33,067 bases of DNA from contig WGAY01000027.1 of assembly GCA_015494585.1 (NCBI GenBank), positions 1 to 33,067 on the forward strand, given 5' to 3'. The notes beneath the pieces are model-generated. The model made no database searches. It was not told where the DNA came from and worked only from the letters and a program-made list of their open reading frames with translations. Of this stretch, positions 3,073-32,770 are shown piece by piece (the stretch's first letter is position 1; each line of letters opens with the position of its first letter). The DNA is from Candidatus Omnitrophota bacterium (GTDB lineage: Bacteria; Omnitrophota; Gorgyraeia; S143-82). A program made the translations under genes and the position numbers.

Positions 3073-4824
3073 ATGGGCAATATGTATAAGAAGATAGTCT
3101 TTATCAAGGATACCAATGCCGGAAAGGCAGATCTAACTCGTCACTATGCGAGTCTGTTCGCCAAATACGCCAAACCATTTATAGAAGATATGCAATTGTA
3201 TGTAGTAAGGGCAGCTGACTTGGGTATATATGGCAAGGGAATGGTGGTAAAGATATGGCCCCAGAATATCTACTATGCATCGGTAAAAGAAGAGGATATT
3301 CCTGAGATAATCGAGGCTTCTGTTAAAAACGAAGGAGTTGTTGATAGACTCCTTTACCGTCCTTCTGATAAACAGATGCGTATTGTACTGCGTAACTGTG
3401 GTGTTATAGACCCTGAGAGCATAGATGAATATATAGCAAAAGATGGCTATGGTGGCCTTGAACGGGTATTATCAGGTATGTCTGCGGAAGATGTGATAGA
3501 GGAGATAAAGAAAAGCGGTTTGAGAGGAAGGGGAGGCGGAGGCTTTCCTACTTGGATGAAGTGGAATTTTGCCAGGAGTGTTTCTTCAGATGAGAAGTAC
3601 ATCATCTGTAATGCAGATGAAGGCGACCCTGGGGCCTATATGGATAGGAGTGTGCTGGAAGGTGATCCCCATTCGGTAATAGAAGGTATGATTATCGCTG
3701 GCTATGCAGTTGGGGCCTCTAAGGGGTTCTTTTACATAAGGGCAGAGTATCCACTTGCAATTGAACGTGTTAAACAGGCTATAGATCAGGCCTATGAATA
3801 TGGATTGCTTGGGGAGAATATCCTTGGAACTGGTTTTTCGTTTGATATAGAGATAAGGCTTGGTGCTGGTGCGTTTGTCTGTGGCGAGGAAACAGCCCTG
3901 ATTGCCTCTATTGAGGGCAAGAGGGGCACTCCCAGACCAAGGCCTCCTTATCCGTCTGTTAAAGGATTATGGGACAGACCCACGGTGATAAATAATGTCG
4001 AGACCCTTGCAAACGTTCCATTTATTTTGCTAAAGGGTGGAGATTGGTTTGCTAGCATTGGTACAGAAAATTCTAAAGGGACAAAGGTCTTTGCCCTGAC
4101 CGGTAAGGTGAAGAATTCTGGACTTATAGAGGTCCCTATGGGGACGACCCTCAGGGAGATAGTCTTTGACATAGGCGGTGGGGTTATTGGGGATAAGAAG
4201 ATAAAGGCAGTCCAGACCGGCGGACCTTCAGGCGGTGTTATACCTGAACACCTGCTCGATACACCGGTCGATTATGAAAATCTTCAACGGCTGGGATCGA
4301 TTATGGGTTCGGGGGGGATGATAGTTATGAGTGAAGATGATTGTATGGTGGATATATCTAAATTCTATCTAAAATTCTGTGTAGATGAGTCCTGCGGCAA
4401 GTGCGCTCCTTGTCGAATTGGTGGCTATCAGATGCTCAATATATTGAATAAAATTACAAATGGCGAGGGAGAAGAAAGGGACCTGGAGAATATATCTCTG
4501 ATTGCCCGAGCTATGCAGAGGGCATCCCTCTGTGGACTGGGCCAGACCGCTCCCAATCCTGTGGTTTCGACGATGAAGTTTTTTGAAGAGGAATACAGAC
4601 AGCATATCTTTGATAAGAAATGTCCTTCAGGTAAGTGTAAGAGGCTTATTCATTATGAAATAGTCCAGGAGAAGTGCGTCAGGTGCGGTATGTGTTATAT
4701 AAACTGTCCTGTCGAAGCCATAACTGGTTCTAAGGCAAAAGGATTTGTTATCCATCAGGACCTTTGTATAAAGTGTGGTAAGTGTTATGAGGTCTGTAAG
4801 TTTGGGGCAGTTATATTGAAATAG
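3073..4824 (+). CDS. NuoF-like FMN/NAD-binding subunit of bifurcating-type hydrogenase (HndC/HydB-like)
   Basis: 583 aa; GLRGRGGGGFPTWMKW, CNADEGDPGAYMDRSVLEGDPHSVIEGM, ESCGKCAPCRIG, and C-terminal 2x[4Fe-4S] CVRCGMCYINCP / CIKCGKCYEVCK. Confidence 0.95.
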   Translation: MGNMYKKIVFIKDTNAGKADLTRHYASLFAKYAKPFIEDMQLYVVRAADLGIYGKGMVVKIWPQNIYYASVKEEDIPEIIEASVKNEGVVDRLLYRPSDKQMRIVLRNCGVIDPESIDEYIAKDGYGGLERVLSGMSAEDVIEEIKKSGLRGRGGGGFPTWMKWNFARSVSSDEKYIICNADEGDPGAYMDRSVLEGDPHSVIEGMIIAGYAVGASKGFFYIRAEYPLAIERVKQAIDQAYEYGLLGENILGTGFSFDIEIRLGAGAFVCGEETALIASIEGKRGTPRPRPPYPSVKGLWDRPTVINNVETLANVPFILLKGGDWFASIGTENSKGTKVFALTGKVKNSGLIEVPMGTTLREIVFDIGGGVIGDKKIKAVQTGGPSGGVIPEHLLDTPVDYENLQRLGSIMGSGGMIVMSEDDCMVDISKFYLKFCVDESCGKCAPCRIGGYQMLNILNKITNGEGEERDLENISLIARAMQRASLCGLGQTAPNPVVSTMKFFEEEYRQHIFDKKCPSGKCKRLIHYEIVQEKCVRCGMCYINCPVEAITGSKAKGFVIHQDLCIKCGKCYEVCKFGAVILK

Positions 4825-4847
4825 GGATAGGTTATAAAGGAGAGGAT

Positions 4848-6593
4848 ATGGTAGTAAAGGCAACTATAGACGGAATACCGGTAGAGGTAGAATACGGGAC
4901 AACTATACTAGATGCAGCCAGAAGTGTGCAGGTCAAGATCCCTACCCTTTGTAAACACCCTGATCTGCCTGCATCGGCTGCTTGCGGTATCTGTATTGTA
5001 AGGGTAAAGGGCAACAATAAGATGCTAAGGGCCTGTTGTACGCCTCTGGAAGATGGTATGGAGATCATTACCAATGATCCGGAGATAGTAGAGGTCAGGA
5101 GGACCGTATTGGAGCTGATTTTATCTAACCATCCAGATGAGTGCCTTATCTGCGGTAGGAATAATAATTGTGAGTTGCAGAGGTTTGCAGCGGATTTTGG
5201 TATAAGGGAGGAGCGCTATTCCAAGTTCCTTAGAGATATACCTGCGGATGTTTCGACTGGGACGATAGAACTGCATCCCCAGAAGTGTATCCTCTGTGGC
5301 AGGTGCGTTGAGGTATGTCAGGAGGTTCAGGATGTCTGGGCCCTATCTTTCCTGGAACGTGGTTTCAATACCAGGATCTCTCCAGCAGGGGACATAGAGT
5401 TAAACGAATCTCCCTGTGTCAAGTGCGGACAATGTTCTGCCCACTGTCCAACCGGGGCCATCTTTGAGAAAGACGATACCTCAAAGGTCTGGGAGGCCTT
5501 AAGAGACGCTGATAAATACTGTGTTGTACAAATAGCGCCTGCGGTTAGGGTGGCTATAGGGGAGGCCTTTGGTTATCCTTATGGGACTAACCTTACGAAG
5601 AAGTTATATGCCCTGCTAAGGAGGCTTGGATTTAGGGCAGTCTTTGATACCTCTTTTGGAGCTGATCTGACCGTAATGGAGGAGGCCAGTGAATTTGTTA
5701 AGAGATTCGCCGAAGGCAGGGGGCCTCTGCCATTGATAACTACCTGTTGCCCTTCCTGGGTCGATTTTATGGAGAAATTTTATACAGATATGATAGAGCA
5801 CTTCTCGTCTGCAAAGTCCCCTCATGAGATGCTAGGGGTACTTTCCAAGACCTACTACGCAGAGAAGAATTCGATTCCACCAGAGAAGATATTTATGGTC
5901 TCTATTATGCCCTGTACATCCAAAAAGTATGAGATAACCCGCAGTGATGAGATGTTTGCCTCTGGTTATGCGGATATAGATGTTGTTTTAACCACTCGAG
6001 AATTGGCTAGGATGATAAAACAGGCCGGTATTGATTTTAACAACCTTGCCGATGAGGAACCCGACCACATACTAGGCGACTATACTGGTGCGGGGGTCAT
6101 ATTCGGGGCCACGGGTGGCGTTATGGAGGCGGCACTGCGCACCGCCTATTTCTTTATTAGTGGAGAGAATCTAAAGGAAGTGGAGTTTAAACAGGTGCGG
6201 GGTCTTGATGGTGTAAAAGAATGCGAAGTAGATGTGGCCGGCAGAGGGGTGCGGGTAGCAGTTGCCCATGGATTGTCGAATGTCGAGTTTATATTAAACA
6301 AGGTGCGGCGGGCAAAGGAGAAAGGAGAGGATTTGCCCTATCACTTTATCGAGGTTATGGCCTGCCCTGGTGGGTGCGTGGGGGGAGGTGGACAGCCTTA
6401 TGGTGTGACCGATGAGCTGCGTATAGCCAGGGCCAGGGGTTTGTATGAGGATGATGAAGGGCGGATAAGGTATGCGCATGAAAATCCCTATATAAAGAAA
6501 CTCTATGAGGAATTTTTAGGTGAGCCGCTAGGAGAGAAATCTCATCATCTGCTTCATACGAAATACACCCCCAGGCCGGTGTATGTAAGATGA
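4848..6593 (+). CDS. hydA: [FeFe] hydrogenase catalytic subunit (HndD/HydA-like)
   Basis: 581 aa; H-cluster motifs TTCCPSWVDFMEKF, MPCTSKKYE, EVMACPGGCVGGGGQP; N-terminal [2Fe-2S], HPDECLICGRNNNCELQ and two [4Fe-4S] motifs; C-terminal small-subunit-like tail. Confidence 0.95.
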   Translation: MVVKATIDGIPVEVEYGTTILDAARSVQVKIPTLCKHPDLPASAACGICIVRVKGNNKMLRACCTPLEDGMEIITNDPEIVEVRRTVLELILSNHPDECLICGRNNNCELQRFAADFGIREERYSKFLRDIPADVSTGTIELHPQKCILCGRCVEVCQEVQDVWALSFLERGFNTRISPAGDIELNESPCVKCGQCSAHCPTGAIFEKDDTSKVWEALRDADKYCVVQIAPAVRVAIGEAFGYPYGTNLTKKLYALLRRLGFRAVFDTSFGADLTVMEEASEFVKRFAEGRGPLPLITTCCPSWVDFMEKFYTDMIEHFSSAKSPHEMLGVLSKTYYAEKNSIPPEKIFMVSIMPCTSKKYEITRSDEMFASGYADIDVVLTTRELARMIKQAGIDFNNLADEEPDHILGDYTGAGVIFGATGGVMEAALRTAYFFISGENLKEVEFKQVRGLDGVKECEVDVAGRGVRVAVAHGLSNVEFILNKVRRAKEKGEDLPYHFIEVMACPGGCVGGGGQPYGVTDELRIARARGLYEDDEGRIRYAHENPYIKKLYEEFLGEPLGEKSHHLLHTKYTPRPVYVR

Positions 6594-6678: not shown

Positions 6679-7143
6679 GTGTTAATGATTAAAAACAAAG
6701 GCTTTACTCTAATTGAACTCTTAGTCGTAATAGGTATAATTCTCTTGCTTGCGGCGATGCTCTTCCCAGCGCTTCAAGGGGCAAGGGAGCAAGGGCGCAG
6801 GGCAAAGTGTGTAAATAACCTGAAACAGATAAGCGCTGCCCTTCATATGTATGCATCTGACCACAATGAGAGGTTTCCTGATAAATTGCAAGATTTGGTT
6901 GACGAAGGCTACATCGATGATGTCAATGTCTTTATTTGCCCGAGCTCTGGGCTTACGTCTATTTCCTCTGCTGACGAGGGAAGTTATTTGTATAATAGCG
7001 GTCTAACGGAAAGTGCATCCTCCACTACCCCTATTGTATGTGACAAACCAGAAAATCACAAAAAGGGTGGCAATGTATTGTATGTTGGGGGTACAGTAAA
7101 GTGGTCTCCTGGGAAAAAGGGACAGTGGCAGCCTCCGTTTTAA
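6679..7143 (+). CDS. Type II secretion/type IV pilus-like prepilin (pseudopilin) with H-x-G-type C-terminal motif
   Basis: [33 protein letters not shown] prepilin signal; C-terminal [20 protein letters not shown] start at 6679 or ATG at 6685. Confidence 0.9.
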
Positions 7144-7220
7144 TGGTAATAATTGGGTTCTAAGGTTAGCTAGTTTTTAGCTTTTAGTTTCTATTGGGGC
7201 GTTGTAACCAAGGAGGGGTA

Positions 7221-9161
7221 ATGAAAAAGGGGCGCCTTTCTATAAAGATATTTAGTCGTATATTGTTTGTTCTACTTATTGGTCAGGTTTTGTATGGACT
7301 TATTTATTTCCATGATGTTAAGGGCGAAAAGATAAAAGATGTGGCGAATCGCGAAAAATTGGCTGCGGAGATTATTAGAAGTAAGTTTGAAAGTATGCGC
7401 AGGGTTGGCAGTCTCGCAATAGATTCTATTACCAGCAATCCTGTTATAGAAGAGGCATTATATCTTAGACAAAGGGCGCGCCTTAAATTCTATACACTTC
7501 CGTTGTGGAAATCTCTAAAGGAAAAAGGAGTTGCCCAGTTTCAGTTTCATACACCACCCGCAACTTCCTTTCTGAGGCTTCATAAGCTTCGCAAATATGG
7601 CGATGACCTCTCAAAATTCAGGAAAACCGTTATTAAGTGTAACGCGGAAAGGCGTCCTATCTATGGCTTTGAATTAGGCCGCGGTGGATGGGGGTATAGG
7701 GTTGTTGCTCCTGTATTTTATATGGGCAGGCATACCGGTTCGGTTGAGTTGGGGATGAAAATAAGTGAGAATACTTTACAGGAATTTAAAGATATGCTTG
7801 GTGGGGAATGGGCCTTATTTTCCCTCTCAAAGCTTACCGAGGAGGGAGATCTTGTATGGTTGGATAAACCAAAGGCAATAGCTTATACTAATGATGATAT
7901 AAAGCAAAGTGATGTTTCTGATTTCTTAGAGGATAATCTTGATAAATTAAAAGATGGAGAGATTGTATCCCGGCTTGACCCAGAAGACGGGATGATAGAG
8001 GTATTATTGCCTATGAAGGATTTTTCGGGTAGAGTTGGTTTCGTATTTGTTTATCTTTATCCAAGTAATATGCAGGCCATTATAAGAGGAGTGATCTTAA
8101 AAACATTAGCGCTTTCCCTGATACTGCTTATAGTGATGTCGGTCGTCTCTATGTTGACAATAAATTCCTCTTTGAAACCAATTGTTGAAATAACTGGTAT
8201 GATAGATGAAATATCCTCTGGAGAAGGTGACCTTACAAAACATATAAGAGTGAATTCTAATGATGAGATTGGGGAACTTGCTAAAGGGTTTAATCGATTT
8301 ATAGATAGCCAAAGGGAAATGATAGGAGAAATAAAGGCGCGCGTGGATAAGCTTCTAGCTCAGATGAATGATCTGGTGAATCAGATTATACAGGTTGATC
8401 AATCTGCCAAGGAGCAGAATGACCATGTTTCACGCGTTGCAACGGCTGTTGAAGAGATGAACTCAACGGTAGCAGAGATCGCCAATAATGCTGATTCTGC
8501 GGTGCAGGTATCGGATGAGGCATCTAACAAGGCCAAACATGGCCGGGATGTAGTTGGACAGACAATGCAGGGTATGAATACCATTGCCCAGGTAGTGGGA
8601 CGGGCATCAGAGAGGATAAACAGCCTTGGCGAAAAGAGCGCCCAGATAGGTGAGATTATCGGGGTGATTGATGATATCGCTGACCAGACAAACCTGTTGG
8701 CATTGAATGCTGCAATTGAAGCGGCCCGCGCTGGCGAGCAGGGAAGGGGATTTGCGGTAGTTGCTGATGAGGTGCGAAAACTGGCAGAACGCACCTCTCA
8801 GGCTACAAAGGAGGTCGCTGACACCATAAAGACTATTCAAAAGGAGACAAAAGATGCGGTTTCTGCTATGGATGAGACCCGTCAGGAAGTGGAGAGGGGC
8901 AAAGAACTGGCAGATGCATCTTCTCAGGCCTTAAGCGAGATCGAGAATTCGACAGATACAGTGAGTGCAATGATAAGCCAGATTGCCAATGCTACTCGTG
9001 AGCAAAGTCGAGCAACCGAAGAGATTACACAGAGCATCGAGGGAATAACCCTTTTATCTAATCAGGCATCCGAGATAAGCTCTTCTTCGCGCCAAATAGT
9101 TGAGTCTCTGGCCAATCTAGTAAATGAGATAAAGTCTCAGGTAGATAGATTTAAGTTATAA
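7221..9161 (+). CDS. Methyl-accepting chemotaxis protein (dCache_3-like sensor, HAMP, MCP signalling domain)
   Basis: Two TM segments; [25 protein letters not shown] sensor motif; [45 protein letters not shown]. The ORF track starts at 7194, but SD AAGGAGGGG and ATG at 7221 are preferred. Confidence 0.93.
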
Positions 9162-25212: not shown

Positions 25213-26421
25213 TTGGAGCTAAAACGGGCGGTATTAGCCGGATTTGGCCTGGCCCTGTGGACGACAGTAGGGCTTTGTAGCGCTGGATTGGTGGTCTCTC
25301 CTTCGAGTGTTTCGGTTTCCAGTGGTTCTGTAGGTGAGGTCAGTGTCAGGGTATCTGGGAACCAGGCCTATTATCTGGAGCAGTTTTTGTCTGCACCGCT
25401 GAGGGATTCTGATGGGCATATTCTTCAATCAGGAATACTGCAGTGTGTTGTGTCCTTATCCTCGCCGGCCGTAGGAGATGTTATCTGGCCTGCTGGAGAT
25501 GCGGTTACGACTATGCCGAAGCGTCTTTACATATCGGATAATAATGGACATAGCATTTCTCTTAAGTTGATTTATTCATTGAGTTTAGGTTCTAATATTA
25601 CGCCAGGCCACTATAGAGGAGAATTGATCTATCGGATTAAGGATGAGCAGGGTCGTGTACTTTCTGTGTACAGGCTTGCGCTACGAATTGTGGTGGAGGG
25701 GATCGGTTCGTCTAACAGGTCGTTGAGGCTCTTGGAGGGTAGGGTTTCGGGTGTCGAGTTGGTGATCGATTCGCCTGTTAGGCTGTTAGGAGAGGGAGAG
25801 TTACCGGCAATAGAGGTAAGATTTTTGAAGAATGGAGCTGTTTTCCTGCCATGGACACCCCTTAAAAATGGGATTGTCCTGAAGGAAGCGGGAAATTATA
25901 TTATGGAGGTAAGGCTTGCCTCTGATGTAATGGCTGGCAGTTATTCCGGTAGATTGGTTGCCTACGATATGCACGGGAAGGAGTCTTTTTCTGTTAATGT
26001 GTCTGCAGATATAGAGGAGAGATTTTCTCTGGATGTAAATGATGTGGTATTTGTAATGCGGCCCTCTGAGGATGGAGGACTTGTCTCATCTCCTGTGGAG
26101 ATTTCTATTTCCAATAATCTGGGTAGGGATTTTATGATTTATGGGAAGCTAAACGTGATATCACCTGAGTCCGCTAGGAGAAAATCGAGTGCTGATATTC
26201 GCCTTGAGGCAAAGGTGATGGTCTTCTGCAATGGTAAATGGAGGCAGTATAGGAGTTGGTCCCCTGTCTATATGATGAGGCAGGTGGTCTATGTATCTGA
26301 TGTGAGGCATTGCAACGCAAATAAATTAAAGGTGATTTATAGAATAAGTCCGAAGAACAAGAAAAAGATGCTGGCCGGTGAGTATGAGTTTAATGTCAGC
26401 TTTTATCTTATGCCTAAGTAA
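25213..26421 (+). CDS. Secreted three-domain beta-sandwich protein, putative fibre component/accessory subunit
   Basis: TTG start with SD GGAGGTGG; signal peptide; three segments each ending in a pilin-like strand: ITPGHYRGELIY..., VMAGSYSGRLVAY..., KMLAGEYEFNVSFYL. Confidence 0.6.
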   Translation: MELKRAVLAGFGLALWTTVGLCSAGLVVSPSSVSVSSGSVGEVSVRVSGNQAYYLEQFLSAPLRDSDGHILQSGILQCVVSLSSPAVGDVIWPAGDAVTTMPKRLYISDNNGHSISLKLIYSLSLGSNITPGHYRGELIYRIKDEQGRVLSVYRLALRIVVEGIGSSNRSLRLLEGRVSGVELVIDSPVRLLGEGELPAIEVRFLKNGAVFLPWTPLKNGIVLKEAGNYIMEVRLASDVMAGSYSGRLVAYDMHGKESFSVNVSADIEERFSLDVNDVVFVMRPSEDGGLVSSPVEISISNNLGRDFMIYGKLNVISPESARRKSSADIRLEAKVMVFCNGKWRQYRSWSPVYMMRQVVYVSDVRHCNANKLKVIYRISPKNKKKMLAGEYEFNVSFYLMPK

Positions 26422-26434
26422 AGGGGTAATTATT

Positions 26435-27229
26435 ATGAGGAAGGTATTGTTTTTGACGGTTATATTTGTTTTTGGTGTCCATTTTATGCTTTGGGCGGCC
26501 TTTGCCAGTATTGATAAGGTCAAGATACGCATAGAGGATCCTACGGGTAGTACGGCTTCGGGTATCATTACCTTGGAAAATAAGGAAGACAAGCCTATAG
26601 AGGTGAAGATATATCCAATGGAGTGGAGGTATGTTTCTCCTTATGATGGGTCTAAGGATTTTATGCCTCTGGGCAGTAGCTGTCCGGATATCGCTAATTG
26701 GTTCCAGGTTTATCCAGAATATGTCAGGCTTATGCCTGGCGAGAGGCAGAGTGTGCACTATAAACTCAATATCCCTGATAATCTAAAGAGACCATGTTAT
26801 CTGGTTATATTCTTTGAAACCGATCTTACGGGTAGCGGTTCGGTATCGGGCAAAAACAGGGTGGGGCTGCAGATATTTACTCGTATAGGTTCACTGTTAC
26901 TGGTTGAACCTTCTGATATTGTAGTCCGTTCGGCTGATGCGGTTTCTGTAACTATGTCTGCCGCAGATAGATTGACGGTGACCTTAAATAATAAAGGTAA
27001 TGCCGCCTTGATAGGTAGTGTAAGCGTATTTGTTATGGATAGAGATGGCAATATCCTGGCTCGCACAGAGAAAAAGGATATATATATGCCACCTCAAGCA
27101 AAGGGAGACGTAGAACTAAATATTATTGGTAGTGGTCTAGGTTTTAGTTCTGCTTATACTGCGCTTGTTACCATCCAACCAGAGGTAGGTCAGCCGATTA
27201 GTGTTGAACTGCCTATTTCTAGTGATTAG
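26435..27229 (+). CDS. PapD-like periplasmic pilus chaperone
   Basis: Signal peptide MRKVLFLTVIFVFGVHFMLWAAFA; SASGIITLENKEDKPIEVKIYPMEWRY...WFQVYPEYVRLMPGERQSVHYKLNIPDNLKRPCYLVIFFETD resembles PapD N-domain. ORF track starts at 26378; the internal ATG fits the signal peptide. Confidence 0.65.
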   Translation: MRKVLFLTVIFVFGVHFMLWAAFASIDKVKIRIEDPTGSTASGIITLENKEDKPIEVKIYPMEWRYVSPYDGSKDFMPLGSSCPDIANWFQVYPEYVRLMPGERQSVHYKLNIPDNLKRPCYLVIFFETDLTGSGSVSGKNRVGLQIFTRIGSLLLVEPSDIVVRSADAVSVTMSAADRLTVTLNNKGNAALIGSVSVFVMDRDGNILARTEKKDIYMPPQAKGDVELNIIGSGLGFSSAYTALVTIQPEVGQPISVELPISSD

Positions 27230-27252
27230 CTAATGTGTAAGGAGAGGTAGGT

Positions 27253-30200
27253 ATGAGGTATTTATTGCTCTATTTGTCGTCAATTAATAAAATATTTTAT
27301 ATTTATTTCAAACAAACAACAAAAATAATTAGAAAACATAATATTATAAATATAGCTATGCGGGTCTTTATTTCTGGGCTCTTTCTTTTATATCCTATCT
27401 CTCCACTGGCCTGGGCAGGCCTTGGAGCGGTGGAGACACCTATGGTTGAGGGCGCACAGGCCCATATCCTGTCTGCTATGAACGCTATTGATATAGAGGA
27501 CTGGGAGAGGGCAGAACGAGAACTGGAGGAGGCGATAAAGCGGGCCCCGTACAACGAGGATCTATATGAGTTGTGGAAGGATGTCCAGAGGATAGCCCTT
27601 TATATAGAGATTCAACGCAATAATCAAGAGGCGATTACGTCTGCTATCAGGTACTTGAAGATGAAGAAGGCATTGCTCGAAGCAGAGATGGAGTATGGGC
27701 GAAGAGGGGTGAGCGGGGTATCTTCAGGCCTTGGAGGACTTGAGCGGTTTCGTAAGGCAGGGAAAAGGGGGCAGGCGATGAAGGAGGCCCTGGAGGCATA
27801 TGATATCGAGAAAGAGGAAACGATGAGGAGGGCCCTTGATGAGTATAGCGCCAAAAGAGATCGGGCTATGGAGGAGGCCTTGTCTTTCTATGAAGAGAAG
27901 GTGGGACCTGCGAAGAGGAGGATAAGGCCTTCAGAGAAGATTCGTCCGTCTGAGGAGGTGATTGCGCCTGTAAGGCCTGAGGAAAAATTAAGGGCCTATA
28001 GGAAGGCACTAAAGGGCTATGCCCCGTCTCAAAGAAAAAGTGGGGCAGGGCCTGTTTCAATAGGTGGAAAGGAAAAAGAAATCCCTTCGATGGTTGAAAG
28101 ACAGGGCTACGGGCTGGTGGATGTGTCTGCCTATAATAGGGCAGAGATTATTCCACTTGAACTGGAGATAGATAAATTTTTGATTCTTAAATTTCCTGGC
28201 TCTGTGAGGCAGTATGTAGTTGTTGATGAGGAATTGGTGTCTATAGAGAAGGTGAGCGAGGATAAGCTAAAGCTGACTCCCACAGGTTCTGGCCTGGGGA
28301 ATACTATAGTATATGTCTGGGATGATGGCGGGAGGTGGATGTTCTCTTTGAAGGTCATCCCTTCTCGCCTGCTTGAGAGGGAGAAGGAAGAGAGTAGAAA
28401 GCGGATAGAGGAGAAGGAACATATACTTTTTGGATATGAGAATAATTGGTGGGCGTTCTATGACGATACAAATGGGAAGATGGAGAGAAAGAGTCTTGGG
28501 TTTGTCCAGGACTTTACGCTTAAAGGGCCTACGGCCTATGGTAATCTTTCTTCGATTGTTTCAGTGGCAGATAGGCAGGGCAATTACGATGTTGTTTACA
28601 GGTCTGCCAGATTGAGGAATATACGGCGCCTTGGATTTAGAGATGGCGATGTTGTTGTGGGAGACTATTTTGGCAACATATCAAGGTTTACCTTTCCGGG
28701 TAGTTCTCTAGATGGGATTATGGCCTCTGAAAGGCGGGGCAAGTTTAGTATAAAGGGGCTTTATGGTCAGATTACAAATACCTGGAATTACATTCCATTG
28801 ATAGAGAACGAGACAGGAGATATTTATGGCCTCTCAGTTGGCTATGATGGATTTTACTTCAATTATGCCTATTTGGACGAGAATGGAGCTCGAGATGGTT
28901 CGAGTAGGTTTTCAAATGAGGCCTATTCTTTTTACATAAACAGGCCGTTGGGTAAGGATTGGTCTATAGAATCTGAGATAGGTACGGATGAACACTCCTG
29001 GGCAGGGGTGTTGGATCTGAATGGTAGATTAGGTAAGTGGGATGTAAGTCTGAATTTCAGAGACGTGGAGCCAGATTATCTGACGCTTACCGGAACGCCT
29101 GCCTATTCTGGTGAGATTGGTTCCAGGCTGACCCTCTCTCGCGCATTCGAGAAGGGTCTTCAGATAACAACATATCTGGACGTGTATCGAGATAGGAAAT
29201 ATCCGAATCCAGACAAGCCTCATCGATTGAATGTAGATTATTCCTTTATGTGGGGCAGATACCTAGACAATATATCTTATGGGTGGGAGTTTGATTTGAT
29301 AGACCATACGGGTACAGTGGGGCCATATAGTTCTTATACATTGAGCGGATTTTATTCGAGGAGTTTTCATTTTCTGAATAGGGATTTCTACTGGAGGGCG
29401 GATGTGTCCCATACCCTCAATAAGGATAAGGCCCTTGATAGGGAGTATCTCGTGGATAGGATCTCTTCGCGCCTGTCTACCAATGTGGTAGGAGATTTCC
29501 TCAACGCCTATGTGTCATCGGATGTGGGGCGGGTAGAGGATAAAGAGGCGGATAAGGTGAGGTATCCTGTGAGAGTAGAGGCAGGATTAAATGCCAGGGC
29601 AACAAGCAGGGATTCACGCCTTGAGTGGACTGGCCATGCCTCCTATAGGTGGGAGACGAATGGTTCGGGTGCCTATAATTTTGTTTCGGATAGGGACCTG
29701 CTTTACCTGAGTAGTAAGCTGGAATATCGATTGAGCAATGATAAGTACCTATATTTGCAGGGAGGATTCAGGCGTTATTTCCCAAAGGATGGCAGTGATT
29801 ACTCTGAGGCAGAGATATATGCGGGTGTGAAATGGTATTGGGATACTGGCTTGAACCTCCTTCCGAAGACATTTGTCTACGGTTATGTATATGAGGATGA
29901 GAATGGCAATGGCCGGATGGATGAGAACGAAAGTGGGATTCCTAATGTTAGCCTATCCTGTGGTGGAAAGACGGCCCGTACGGATGCTGATGGTCGCTAT
30001 GAAATAGGTTGGGTGAAAAAGACATCTGCGTATCTTGAGTTGAATGTAAATGACCTGCCGACAGGCATGCTGCCGAAGGAAGATAAGTTTATAGTAAATA
30101 CGGCGGCTGTCAAGAGACTGCGCAAGGATTTTGCCGTTAGCTACATCACCGGAGTAAAGGGTTATGTATTCATAGATAAAGATGGGGATGGCCGCCTGGG

Positions 30201-30438
30201 CCCTTCCGATATGCCGGTTGGTGATGTGCGCGTCTGCATTGGAGATGAGTGTAGATACACGGATTCAAGAGGAATGTTTTTGTTTTCTAATCTGAATCCA
30301 GGTGATTATGCCATTTCCCTTGACCTTTCTTCTATCCCAGAAGATACCCTGCCATCTGGTAGACCAAAACAAGAGATATCCCTTGCAAAAGGGGTGCAGA
30401 GGCAGGTGTACCTACCCTTGAGGCAGGTTGCAAGATAG
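27253..30438 (+). CDS. Large outer-membrane beta-barrel, putative usher-like protein with secretin/CpaC-like N domain and two C-terminal SdrD/CNA-B-like domains
   Basis: 1061 aa; helical N-term; LILKFPGSVRQYVVVDEELVSIEKVSEDKLKLTPTGSGLGNTIVYVWDD (pilus-formation N-domain-like); long aromatic beta-strand repeats; YGYVYEDENGNGRMDENESGIPNVSLSCGGKTARTDADGRYEI and KGYVFIDKDGDGRLGPSDMPVGDVRVCIGDECRYTDSRGMFLFSNLNPGDY. SD AAGGAGAGG. Confidence 0.65.
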   Translation: MRYLLLYLSSINKIFYIYFKQTTKIIRKHNIINIAMRVFISGLFLLYPISPLAWAGLGAVETPMVEGAQAHILSAMNAIDIEDWERAERELEEAIKRAPYNEDLYELWKDVQRIALYIEIQRNNQEAITSAIRYLKMKKALLEAEMEYGRRGVSGVSSGLGGLERFRKAGKRGQAMKEALEAYDIEKEETMRRALDEYSAKRDRAMEEALSFYEEKVGPAKRRIRPSEKIRPSEEVIAPVRPEEKLRAYRKALKGYAPSQRKSGAGPVSIGGKEKEIPSMVERQGYGLVDVSAYNRAEIIPLELEIDKFLILKFPGSVRQYVVVDEELVSIEKVSEDKLKLTPTGSGLGNTIVYVWDDGGRWMFSLKVIPSRLLEREKEESRKRIEEKEHILFGYENNWWAFYDDTNGKMERKSLGFVQDFTLKGPTAYGNLSSIVSVADRQGNYDVVYRSARLRNIRRLGFRDGDVVVGDYFGNISRFTFPGSSLDGIMASERRGKFSIKGLYGQITNTWNYIPLIENETGDIYGLSVGYDGFYFNYAYLDENGARDGSSRFSNEAYSFYINRPLGKDWSIESEIGTDEHSWAGVLDLNGRLGKWDVSLNFRDVEPDYLTLTGTPAYSGEIGSRLTLSRAFEKGLQITTYLDVYRDRKYPNPDKPHRLNVDYSFMWGRYLDNISYGWEFDLIDHTGTVGPYSSYTLSGFYSRSFHFLNRDFYWRADVSHTLNKDKALDREYLVDRISSRLSTNVVGDFLNAYVSSDVGRVEDKEADKVRYPVRVEAGLNARATSRDSRLEWTGHASYRWETNGSGAYNFVSDRDLLYLSSKLEYRLSNDKYLYLQGGFRRYFPKDGSDYSEAEIYAGVKWYWDTGLNLLPKTFVYGYVYEDENGNGRMDENESGIPNVSLSCGGKTARTDADGRYEIGWVKKTSAYLELNVNDLPTGMLPKEDKFIVNTAAVKRLRKDFAVSYITGVKGYVFIDKDGDGRLGPSDMPVGDVRVCIGDECRYTDSRGMFLFSNLNPGDYAISLDLSSIPEDTLPSGRPKQEISLAKGVQRQVYLPLRQVAR

Positions 30439-30507
30439 GGTGTTAGAATAATTTTTCTTTGTAATTGACATTATATCTTCTGTATTATTAAAAAGTTTTA
30501 TAACCAT

Positions 30508-30536
30508 TTGCTTTTATTGTGTGTTTGTGATAAACT
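30508..30536 (+). promoter_or_regulatory. Candidate promoter for the GH26-pilin gene
   Basis: TTGCTT (30508-30513) - N17 - TAAACT (30531-30536) with TGA extended -10; 28 nt upstream of ATG 30565. Confidence 0.4.
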
Positions 30537-30564
30537 TGTAACAATAAGTTAGAGAGGCAATTTT

Positions 30565-32094
30565 ATGTTTAAGAAAGGCCAAAGGGGCTTAAACAGGTTG
30601 TGCTTGGAGATTGTAGGTATTTCTGTCCTAGTGGGCCTTTTAGTAGTTTTGCCATACAAGCCTGCCTTGGGAGAAGCGGATCTGGGCGTGTTCTTGGGAG
30701 TAAATTATCCCTCTAAAAAGGATGTAAGGGATTTTGAGGATATGATTGGCAGGCATGTGGGTTCTGTGCTTGTGTACCGTGCTATCTCTCCGATTAATTC
30801 CGATCGGGTTGGTGTTGGTTCCTGGAATAATATACGCTATCACGATGATTATGATACGCATACAGGACTTCACCTTGTGCTTGAGCCATGGGTGGGGCTC
30901 ACTGATATAACCAGGGGCATCTATGACGATGAGATAGGGGCATATGCGGATGCAGTGGCAGGATGGGAGGATCCAGTGCGTATTCGTTTTGGCCACGAGA
31001 TGATACAGGATGATGACCCTTCAACAGAAGGTTGGTACGGTTGGCAGGATAGGCCCGAGGAATACAAGGCTGCTTTTGCCTATGTCCACGATCTGTTTGT
31101 TCAGCATGGGGCGAACAATGCCGAGTTTGTATGGGCACCCAACCATCACCTTGCAGATTTCTCTATACTATCGAAATATTATCCAGGTAAAGAATATGTA
31201 GATTGGATAGGAATGGATGGCTGGGGATATCCTGATACGGACTTTGACGCAGTTTTCAAGCAATTATACGATGTGATAGTTAACCATCCTGAATTCTTTG
31301 GGGATAAGCCTATTATGCTGGCAGAGTTTGCGGCAATGGAGGGAGACTATAAGGCGGCCTGGATACAGGATGCTTTTAATAAAATAAAGAACGAATACAA
31401 TAAGATCTCAGCGGTGTACTGGTTCAATGTGAAAAAGGAGCATGATTGGCGGGTGGAGTCTTCTCAAGAGTCTCTAGAGGCCTCTAAGGAGGCAGTAAAG
31501 GATGCCTATTTTAGGGGACATAGGATTGGGAGTTCTGGGAGCTGGGCTGGTAGTTCGAATGGAGGGAATGAAGGGGAAGGTCCTGTTTTTTCAAAGACGA
31601 TTGACATCAGTGTGGATATCCCTGAGCAGAATGAGATAAAGGTGGTGATTTCTAGGGTAAATGTGTCCACTAATGACTGGGAGAGGCGTTCTGATATAGA
31701 CTTTGGAAATCTTCGTTTCGATAAGACTAGGCATATTTTTGTCTCGAATTGCTATTATGTAGTGGATATTGGCATTGTCTCTAATCACGGAGAATGGATG
31801 GTCTCACATGAAATTACCCCTATATTGGGACCCCAGGGCGCTTCTCTGGACAGGAATGTGAGTGTTGTCTTTGCCAGTATGGAGGGGGGAAGAGAGAAGG
31901 TATTGGGGCGTTATCTATATAAGGACAGCAGGAGGTCTTTTCATAGCTCGGAGATAAGGGATCGATGGCTTAGGATATATTACGGTATATCAATGGGTAT
32001 CGATGTAGCGGGTGTTGGTGTCGAACCTATCACAACAGATAAGCCCGCAGGTCAGTATTCGGGTACGATATCGATAGTTTTAGTGGCAAGGTAA
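30565..32094 (+). CDS. GH26-like glycoside hydrolase fused to a C-terminal pilin-like domain (putative fibre-tip enzyme)
   Basis: 509 aa; signal/TM N-term; VRIRFGHEM (E145, acid/base candidate), FVWAPNHH, YVDWIGMDGWGYP, PIMLAEFAA (E254, nucleophile candidate); Ser/Gly linker GSSGSWAGSSNGGNEGEGP; C-terminal domain homologous to ORF 32120-32719. Confidence 0.8.
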   Translation: MFKKGQRGLNRLCLEIVGISVLVGLLVVLPYKPALGEADLGVFLGVNYPSKKDVRDFEDMIGRHVGSVLVYRAISPINSDRVGVGSWNNIRYHDDYDTHTGLHLVLEPWVGLTDITRGIYDDEIGAYADAVAGWEDPVRIRFGHEMIQDDDPSTEGWYGWQDRPEEYKAAFAYVHDLFVQHGANNAEFVWAPNHHLADFSILSKYYPGKEYVDWIGMDGWGYPDTDFDAVFKQLYDVIVNHPEFFGDKPIMLAEFAAMEGDYKAAWIQDAFNKIKNEYNKISAVYWFNVKKEHDWRVESSQESLEASKEAVKDAYFRGHRIGSSGSWAGSSNGGNEGEGPVFSKTIDISVDIPEQNEIKVVISRVNVSTNDWERRSDIDFGNLRFDKTRHIFVSNCYYVVDIGIVSNHGEWMVSHEITPILGPQGASLDRNVSVVFASMEGGREKVLGRYLYKDSRRSFHSSEIRDRWLRIYYGISMGIDVAGVGVEPITTDKPAGQYSGTISIVLVAR

Positions 32095-32119
32095 AACAAA
32101 AGGAAAAAGGAGGTGTAGG

Positions 32120-32719
32120 ATGAAACGGACATTAGCAGCAGCACTTGTGGGCGTATTTTTGTGGGCGGGAGTGGGTCTGGCCGGCAATCAGGAGACGATT
32201 ACGATCAAGGCACATATTCCACAACAACAAGGCATGAATGTGACTGTCTCCAAGATAACGCCTGGTGCAGGGCCAAATGGCGATGACCTCTGGACACATG
32301 TGTCTACTATGGACTTTGGCACGCTTTCCTATGATTCTGACTTCAATATCTTTAAGTCTTCGGTATACTTTGCAGTGGATGTCGGAGTGACTGCAAATAC
32401 TGGCTCCTGGAATATAACACACACGATTACACCGGTAGTAAATAGTAACAATTCCAGTGCAAACCTGAACAAGAATATAAACGTAATATTTGTCTCTCAG
32501 CACGGAGACAGCTATTCCACGCAGATAGCAAAGTATGCCTATGGGAGCTCCAATAACGTAAAGATTAGCAAAAATCAAGTTGGGGAAGGCAACTGGCTGA
32601 GGATATATTATGGGATTGCTACTGGCAAAAACGATGCGCCGGGTGTTGATCCTATTACTGCAGACAAGCCGGCCGGACATTATGAGGGTACGGTGACCCT
32701 TACCCTGACTACGAATTAA
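32120..32719 (+). CDS. Pilin-like fibre subunit (putative major subunit)
   Basis: 199 aa; signal peptide MKRTLAAALVGVFLWAGVGLAG; ETITIKAHIP N-terminal strand, WLRIYYGIATGKNDAPGVDPITADKPAGHYEGTVTLTL C-term; homologous to the C-terminal domain of the preceding GH26 protein. Confidence 0.75.
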   Translation: MKRTLAAALVGVFLWAGVGLAGNQETITIKAHIPQQQGMNVTVSKITPGAGPNGDDLWTHVSTMDFGTLSYDSDFNIFKSSVYFAVDVGVTANTGSWNITHTITPVVNSNNSSANLNKNINVIFVSQHGDSYSTQIAKYAYGSSNNVKISKNQVGEGNWLRIYYGIATGKNDAPGVDPITADKPAGHYEGTVTLTLTTN

Positions 32720-32734
32720 TCTGGGATCTATCTT

Positions 32735-32770
32735 AGGGAGAGGGATAGGTCTTTCCCTCTCCCTTCTCTT
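32735..32770 (+). terminator. Rho-independent-like terminator after the pilin gene
   Basis: Perfect 11-bp stem AGGGAGAGGGA (32735-32745) / TCCCTCTCCCT (32754-32764), 8-nt loop, followed by TCTCTTTTAT. Confidence 0.8.

Follow-up and report, generated by a model that had tools for sequence, protein, structure and literature searches.

A five-gene operon in an Omnitrophota genome, with products here called P1 to P5, probably encodes a divergent chaperone-usher (CU) fibre system, in which P1 would be the likely tip, P5 the shaft, and P4 the subunit that displays a lichenase-type GH26 enzyme on the fibre. This reading draws on the computed folds of the chaperone and the barrel, on the fusion of an enzyme to a pilin domain, on conservation of the operon, and on the presence or absence of donor-strand segments among the subunits.

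The operon and its conservation in Omnitrophota

The window (the whole stretch of DNA analysed, 33,067 nucleotides) belongs to a genome of 1.53 Mb that is 94% complete. An earlier note on this DNA had claimed five consecutive + strand genes with export signals and a strong terminator. Five + strand ORFs do lie in a row, at or very near the coordinates given there; they make up an operon that ends in a strong terminator (Table 1). Every one of the five proteins starts with a hydrophobic export signal, that of P3 following an internal methionine (M36, 27358). The terminator is the strongest of its region; 14 terminator-like sites were found, against 5.5 +/- 2.2 expected.

Other genes of the window include those at 3073-6593 for NuoF-like and [FeFe]-hydrogenase subunits, beside a 155-aa NuoE-like ORF (2199-2666), a probable electron-bifurcating hydrogenase. 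At 6679-9161 there follow a type IV prepilin-like protein (N_methyl, DUF1559) and then a chemoreceptor with dCache and MCP signalling domains.

Across the class, 148 of 384 genomes have a homologue of the chaperone; in a sample of the phylum, 45 of 145 do. Chaperone and usher genes follow one another on the same strand at 71 of the 98 loci examined, and at 62 of the 98 a subunit gene stands directly upstream, giving the order subunit-chaperone-usher. Gene order in related genomes is thus conserved far beyond chance, and the synteny on which the earlier reading had been staked is present in relatives. In a sister genome (L023:4358-11047) the operon's pilin is followed by a 2230-aa open frame that is cut by the contig end; it has no Pfam match, and the window contig ends before that point.

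Table 1. Features of the P1-P5 operon in the window, and small donor-strand-like proteins of related loci
Feature	Position	Strand	Size	Remarks
P1	25213..26421	+	402 aa	secreted, three pilin-like beta domains; probable tip or other terminal subunit
P2	26435..27229	+	264 aa from ATG	PapD-like periplasmic chaperone, two Ig-like domains (predicted)
P2 G1 donor-strand motif LQIFTRIGSLL	26867..26899	+		hydrophobic P3/P2/P0 strand positions and Arg150; aligned to EcpB G1 strand
P3	27253..30438	+	1061 aa	usher-type outer-membrane barrel protein (predicted)
P3 N-terminal periplasmic beta domain	28111..28359	+	residues 287-369	secretin/CpaC N-domain-like; PF13629, Pfam 5.1e-5
P3 barrel	28426..29844	+	residues 392-864	~26 strands; secondary structure of model, mostly pLDDT >90
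P3 two C-terminal SdrD_B/Ig-like domains	29869..30426	+	residues 873-1058	Pfam SdrD_B 3.4e-11, two stretches; model
P4	30565..32094	+	509 aa	GH26 enzyme, linker, donor-strand-like segment, pilin domain
P4 GH26 catalytic domain	30682..31497	+	residues 40-311	E145 acid/base, E254 nucleophile
P4 Gly/Ser linker	31528-31590	+		
P4 donor-strand-like segment SKTIDISVDIPEQ	31591..31629	+		after linker; aligned with pilin N-terminal segment
P4 pilin domain	31630..32091	+		39% identity to P5 over residues 24-197, 8e-34
P5	32120..32719	+	199 aa	stand-alone pilin, probable shaft subunit
P5 N-terminal donor-strand-like segment NQETITIKAHIPQQQ	32186..32230	+		conserved across pilin family; disordered in homologue model
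Rho-independent terminator	32735..32764	+		closes operon; 11-pair stem and T-rich tail
Small donor-strand-like proteins of relatives	L027:10517-10813, L028:10713-11009, L026:317-580, L095, L061 and 27 further loci	L027 -, L028 -, L026 +		

The chaperone and the usher-type barrel

By predicted fold, and partly by its key residues, P2 is a CU-type chaperone, but it does not fit squarely into the alternative clade. As a single protein it matched no CU family in Pfam or NCBIfam, and its sequence gave only chance matches in the PDB (phmmer). A profile of 15 P2-family sequences, searched against all PDB sequences, returned EcpB first (4.5e-5) and Enterococcus WxLIP second (7.9e-5). With E. coli K-12 ecp and fim as yardsticks, a 90-sequence profile of the family was aligned to EcpB by hhalign with 88.7% probability over 158 columns; FimC and unrelated E. 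coli proteins gave near-zero values.

The fold was compared through the predicted structure of a homologue, that of locus L070 (pLDDT 87). Its best Foldseek match was WxLIP (1.6e-12), and it also matched CfaA (TM 0.58-0.62 on the target), EcpB, FimC, Caf1M, CupB2 and CsuC. Profile search, hhalign and fold comparison therefore agree with the PapD-like assignment made earlier for P2. The place of WxLIP at the head of the family's fold matches suggests a kinship between CU chaperones and WxLIP. The adjacent in-frame chaperone and pilin genes of L070 were also modelled as one read-through product (TAA read as Gln); each half folds well, with low confidence in their relative placement.

P2 was read against the key residues that Pakharukova et al. 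set out for CU chaperones (PMC4654587). In their scheme an invariant D1-strand proline, Pro60 in EcpB, marks the chaperone superfamily, and an anchor arginine that is super-conserved (Arg89 in CsuC and EcpB) marks alternative and archaic chaperones (PMC4654587). The proline is kept (Pro94 in P2, aligned with EcpB Pro60) in 83 of 90 homologues. At the D2 anchor position (EcpB Tyr169) P2 has Tyr217, and 65 of the 90 have Tyr or Phe. The Arg89 position is replaced, by Leu in P2 and among the 90 homologues by Ala (54), Gly (20), Ser (10) or Leu (4). Conservation over the same set shows a G1 donor strand that is hydrophobic at strand positions P0, P2 and P3, and the arginine beside P0 (Arg150 in P2) is kept in 87 of 90. 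Retention of the classical Arg8/Lys112 pair in P2 was considered and dropped, FimC Lys112 not being aligned with the invariant Arg150.

P3, judged from its model, is an usher-type outer-membrane barrel with N- and C-terminal domains. In Pfam, P3 and its relatives matched SdrD_B-like, TPR and secretin-N models and never usher models; the single P3 sequence gave chance matches or SdrD only in the PDB (phmmer). No sequence relation of the P3 family to EcpC or FimD was found by hhalign, and the link to ushers therefore rests on fold. An AlphaFold2 model from a 52-sequence alignment (pLDDT 79) was searched with Foldseek against 350,542 PDB chains. Ranks 1-16 were all FimD or PapC (1.7e-20 to 1.6e-8), with FadL and porins behind them (1.6e-7 and weaker), which favours an usher over an unrelated porin as the identity of the large barrel that had been noticed earlier. 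Global TM-scores against ushers were low (0.28/0.36, rmsd 20), probably due to a different placement of domains; the FimD translocation domain taken alone gave a TM of 0.46 to the model. Barrels of CU ushers have 24 strands and a plug domain. The P3 model has about 26 strands, counted from its secondary structure, and no plug-like insertion stands out.

The subunits and the enzyme fusion

P5 is the probable repeating shaft subunit. Its pilin family occurs in 104 of the 384 genomes of the class, and its members conserve an N-terminal segment (NQETITIKAHIPQ in P5) that sits between the signal peptide and the first strand of the domain. In the L070 pilin model this segment is unstructured and the domain is confident. 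Searches of the PDB and Pfam with the pilin and P1 profiles gave no convincing match and no known pilin.

The earlier description of P1 as a three-domain beta-rich protein is plausible, its family being profile-related to the pilins (hhalign 96%). Unlike in pilins, the P1 domain begins straight after the signal peptide, with no N-terminal donor-strand segment. The distance from signal peptide to a conserved FG motif is about 12-18 residues in most P1-type proteins versus about 33-49 in pilins, as measured with a crude signal-peptide rule that misjudged some proteins. P1-type proteins occur in three-domain or single-domain forms, exactly one in many loci. Their gene, the conserved first gene of the operon, occurs at almost every locus, whether GH26 is there or not. 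If subunits are joined by donor-strand exchange, one that has no donor strand can only occupy the far end of a fibre; P1 is therefore probably the tip or another terminal subunit, and a better tip candidate than P4.

Several loci (L034-L039, L043, L062, L067 and L075) carry three to five small pilins and one single-domain P1-like protein that lacks the donor strand. Such loci suggest fibres of multiple subunits.

The GH26 assignment of P4 stands: Pfam finds the domain above its cut-off (7.3e-7), and phmmer aligns 272 residues (40-311) with Lic26A/endoglucanase H of Clostridium thermocellum in the PDB (2.8e-28). Beta-1,3-xylanases and other GH26 members are far behind. The mannanase that had been envisaged is disfavoured, the nearest solved relative being of lichenase type. 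Both catalytic glutamates are shared, E145 and E254 of P4 aligning with E109 and E222 of Lic26A, and both are invariant in the aligned fusions; P4 differs from Lic26A in that its GH26 domain is carried on a predicted fibre subunit.

The pilin-like tail earlier seen on the enzyme is likewise upheld by its identity to the stand-alone P5 (Table 1). The pilin profile matches all seven fusions from positions 24-27 on, that is, from the donor-like segment. Since a counterpart of the pilin donor segment follows the linker, P4 looks, from its sequence, like a shaft-competent pilin with an N-terminal enzyme, and the enzyme may decorate the shaft rather than the tip.

These seven fusions come from seven genomes in five families (the window, L023, L025, L026, L027, L065 and L070), and each sits in the operon wherever its contig permits the check. 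Among the matches listed for the 384 genomes, whole-domain pilin matches in frames longer than 350 aa are exactly these seven, and no other passenger fused to a pilin domain was found. In a fourth genome of the window's genus, the end of a second pilin frame lies just upstream of the pilin. The fused pilin domains form nearly one clade in a tree, with low support, in line with a single origin of the fusion.

A further component may be present in relatives. Among 64 ushers with enough downstream sequence, 32 are neighboured at the stop, on the opposite strand, by a gene encoding a small secreted protein. This gene is always convergent to the usher (32 of 32) and lies within about 160 bases of the usher stop. 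Each of the proteins, about 70-135 aa long, has a signal peptide in front and a short motif at the C-terminus, in many cases TxYSR; between the two come a segment of the type DSVTIAMSCTIPSIPGVNAP and then a stretch of variable sequence. After the proteins themselves, a profile built from them picks up the N-termini of pilins, with values from 1.4e-5 downwards in a small set and of 0.14 in the window genome, and several of the small proteins are recovered by the pilin profile; this likeness may owe part to the signal peptide. In the window's genus, a search for a donor-strand-only protein gave only pilin N-termini or weak matches. To judge from sequence, the small proteins look like donor strands with no pilin body; terminator, anchor and assembly brake are guesses at their role. 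A broader view, which we consider less likely than not, is that these loci represent a separate, unrecognised Omnitrophota CU clade, in which catalytic subunits would be polymerised into the fibre and a free donor-strand peptide would end, anchor or restrain the polymer.

Fibre assembly, alternatives and significance

Our preferred model predicts donor-strand exchange, fibre formation, an order of subunits, passage of GH26 through the barrel, and enzyme activity. Sec would export the subunits to the periplasm, where P2 would lend its G1 strand to cap each of them. P3 would take P1 first, then P5 with some P4, exporting them and linking them by donor-strand exchange, to give a fibre with P1 at its end and GH26 domains along its shaft. 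Because P4 has kept a donor-strand-like segment, it could take a place in the shaft or one directly behind the tip, and polysaccharide hydrolysis would be displayed on the fibre. The weakest step would be the transit of GH26 through the pore in folded form; an usher pore may be too narrow for a barrel of that bulk.

The earlier note had placed P4 itself at the tip, so that GH26 would be a distal effector, added first, with a P5 shaft behind it. Its plan of N-terminal effector and C-terminal pilin domain is that of FimH and CfaE, but tips of this type have a pilin domain with no donor strand, whereas in P4 the enzyme and the pilin domain have a donor-strand-like segment between them. To our knowledge a mid-chain donor strand has no precedent in a tip. 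P1, moreover, has no such segment and is encoded at almost every locus irrespective of GH26, and we consider a P4 tip unlikely.

A second alternative is a surface complex resembling that of WxLIP, with P2 as a structural holder, the barrel as an exporter, GH26 tethered at the surface and no long fibre. The rank of WxLIP, best fold match of the chaperone and second PDB sequence match, favours such a complex, as does the finding that WxLIP lends a beta hairpin to its partner WxL (PMC10599100). The Gram-positive WxL/WxLIP clusters (DUF916-DUF3324) differ, however, from our locus, where an usher-type barrel adjoins the chaperone and there are several subunits with a donor-like segment per locus. 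Neither the pilin nor the P1 family matched a WxL domain in Pfam, and no transmembrane helix is visible at the end of P2. This alternative is quite improbable. Least credible by far, and very nearly dismissed, is that P4 is an ordinary secreted hydrolase beside fibre genes, with a carbohydrate-binding module as its C-terminal domain: the pilins match no recognised family and the domain is unnamed, but it matches no known carbohydrate-binding module in Pfam, it resembles the stand-alone pilin of the same operon, the fusion lies in the operon at every checkable locus, and the GH26 of Omnitrophota locus L124, outside such an operon, has no pilin domain.

The CU fibre system that we favour can be set beside those already known. 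With the alternative (alpha) systems, CFA/I class 5 and Ecp, it shares an operon of subunits, chaperone and usher, a donor-like N-terminal segment on subunits, and a chaperone nearest, among CU chaperones, to CfaA and EcpB. It differs from them in having Ala, Gly, Ser or Leu for Arg89 of the chaperone, an usher with a TPR/coiled N-terminus, a secretin-like N-domain and SdrD_B C-domains (and unrelated in sequence to EcpC of Ecp), a three-domain P1, and an enzyme passenger. With classical pili (type 1, P) it shares a barrel with an N-terminal and two C-terminal beta domains, FimD and PapC being the best PDB folds. It differs from these in that the P2 and P3 families have no PapD_N or Usher match in Pfam and the chaperone is not alignable to FimC. 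Classical CU pili have lectins, not hydrolases, at their tips. Membership in the classical or CFA/I type, as implied by the earlier comparison, is thus not borne out, the barrel having no usher Pfam match and the non-classical arginine being replaced. The locus would function like a CU system, and it shows neither the Pfam matches of the classical type nor the anchor arginine of the non-classical one.

The main survey of Omnitrophota genomes (PMC10066038) discusses type-4a/Tad pili and giant proteins and never mentions ushers; our locus would put a full CU machine in that phylum. Among open-licence papers we found none that joins 'chaperone-usher' with 'Omnitroph' and none on an enzyme-carrying CU fibre, an absence that is not proof. 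No current Pfam model of a CU chaperone, usher or pilin picks up any part of the P1-P5 system, and P2 ties the CU chaperone to WxLIP. CU fibres are known as organelles of adhesion, with a binding domain as the effector. If it does bear a hydrolase, the CU fibre becomes a device for enzyme display, which would suit a bacterium of small genome that attaches to cells or polymers.
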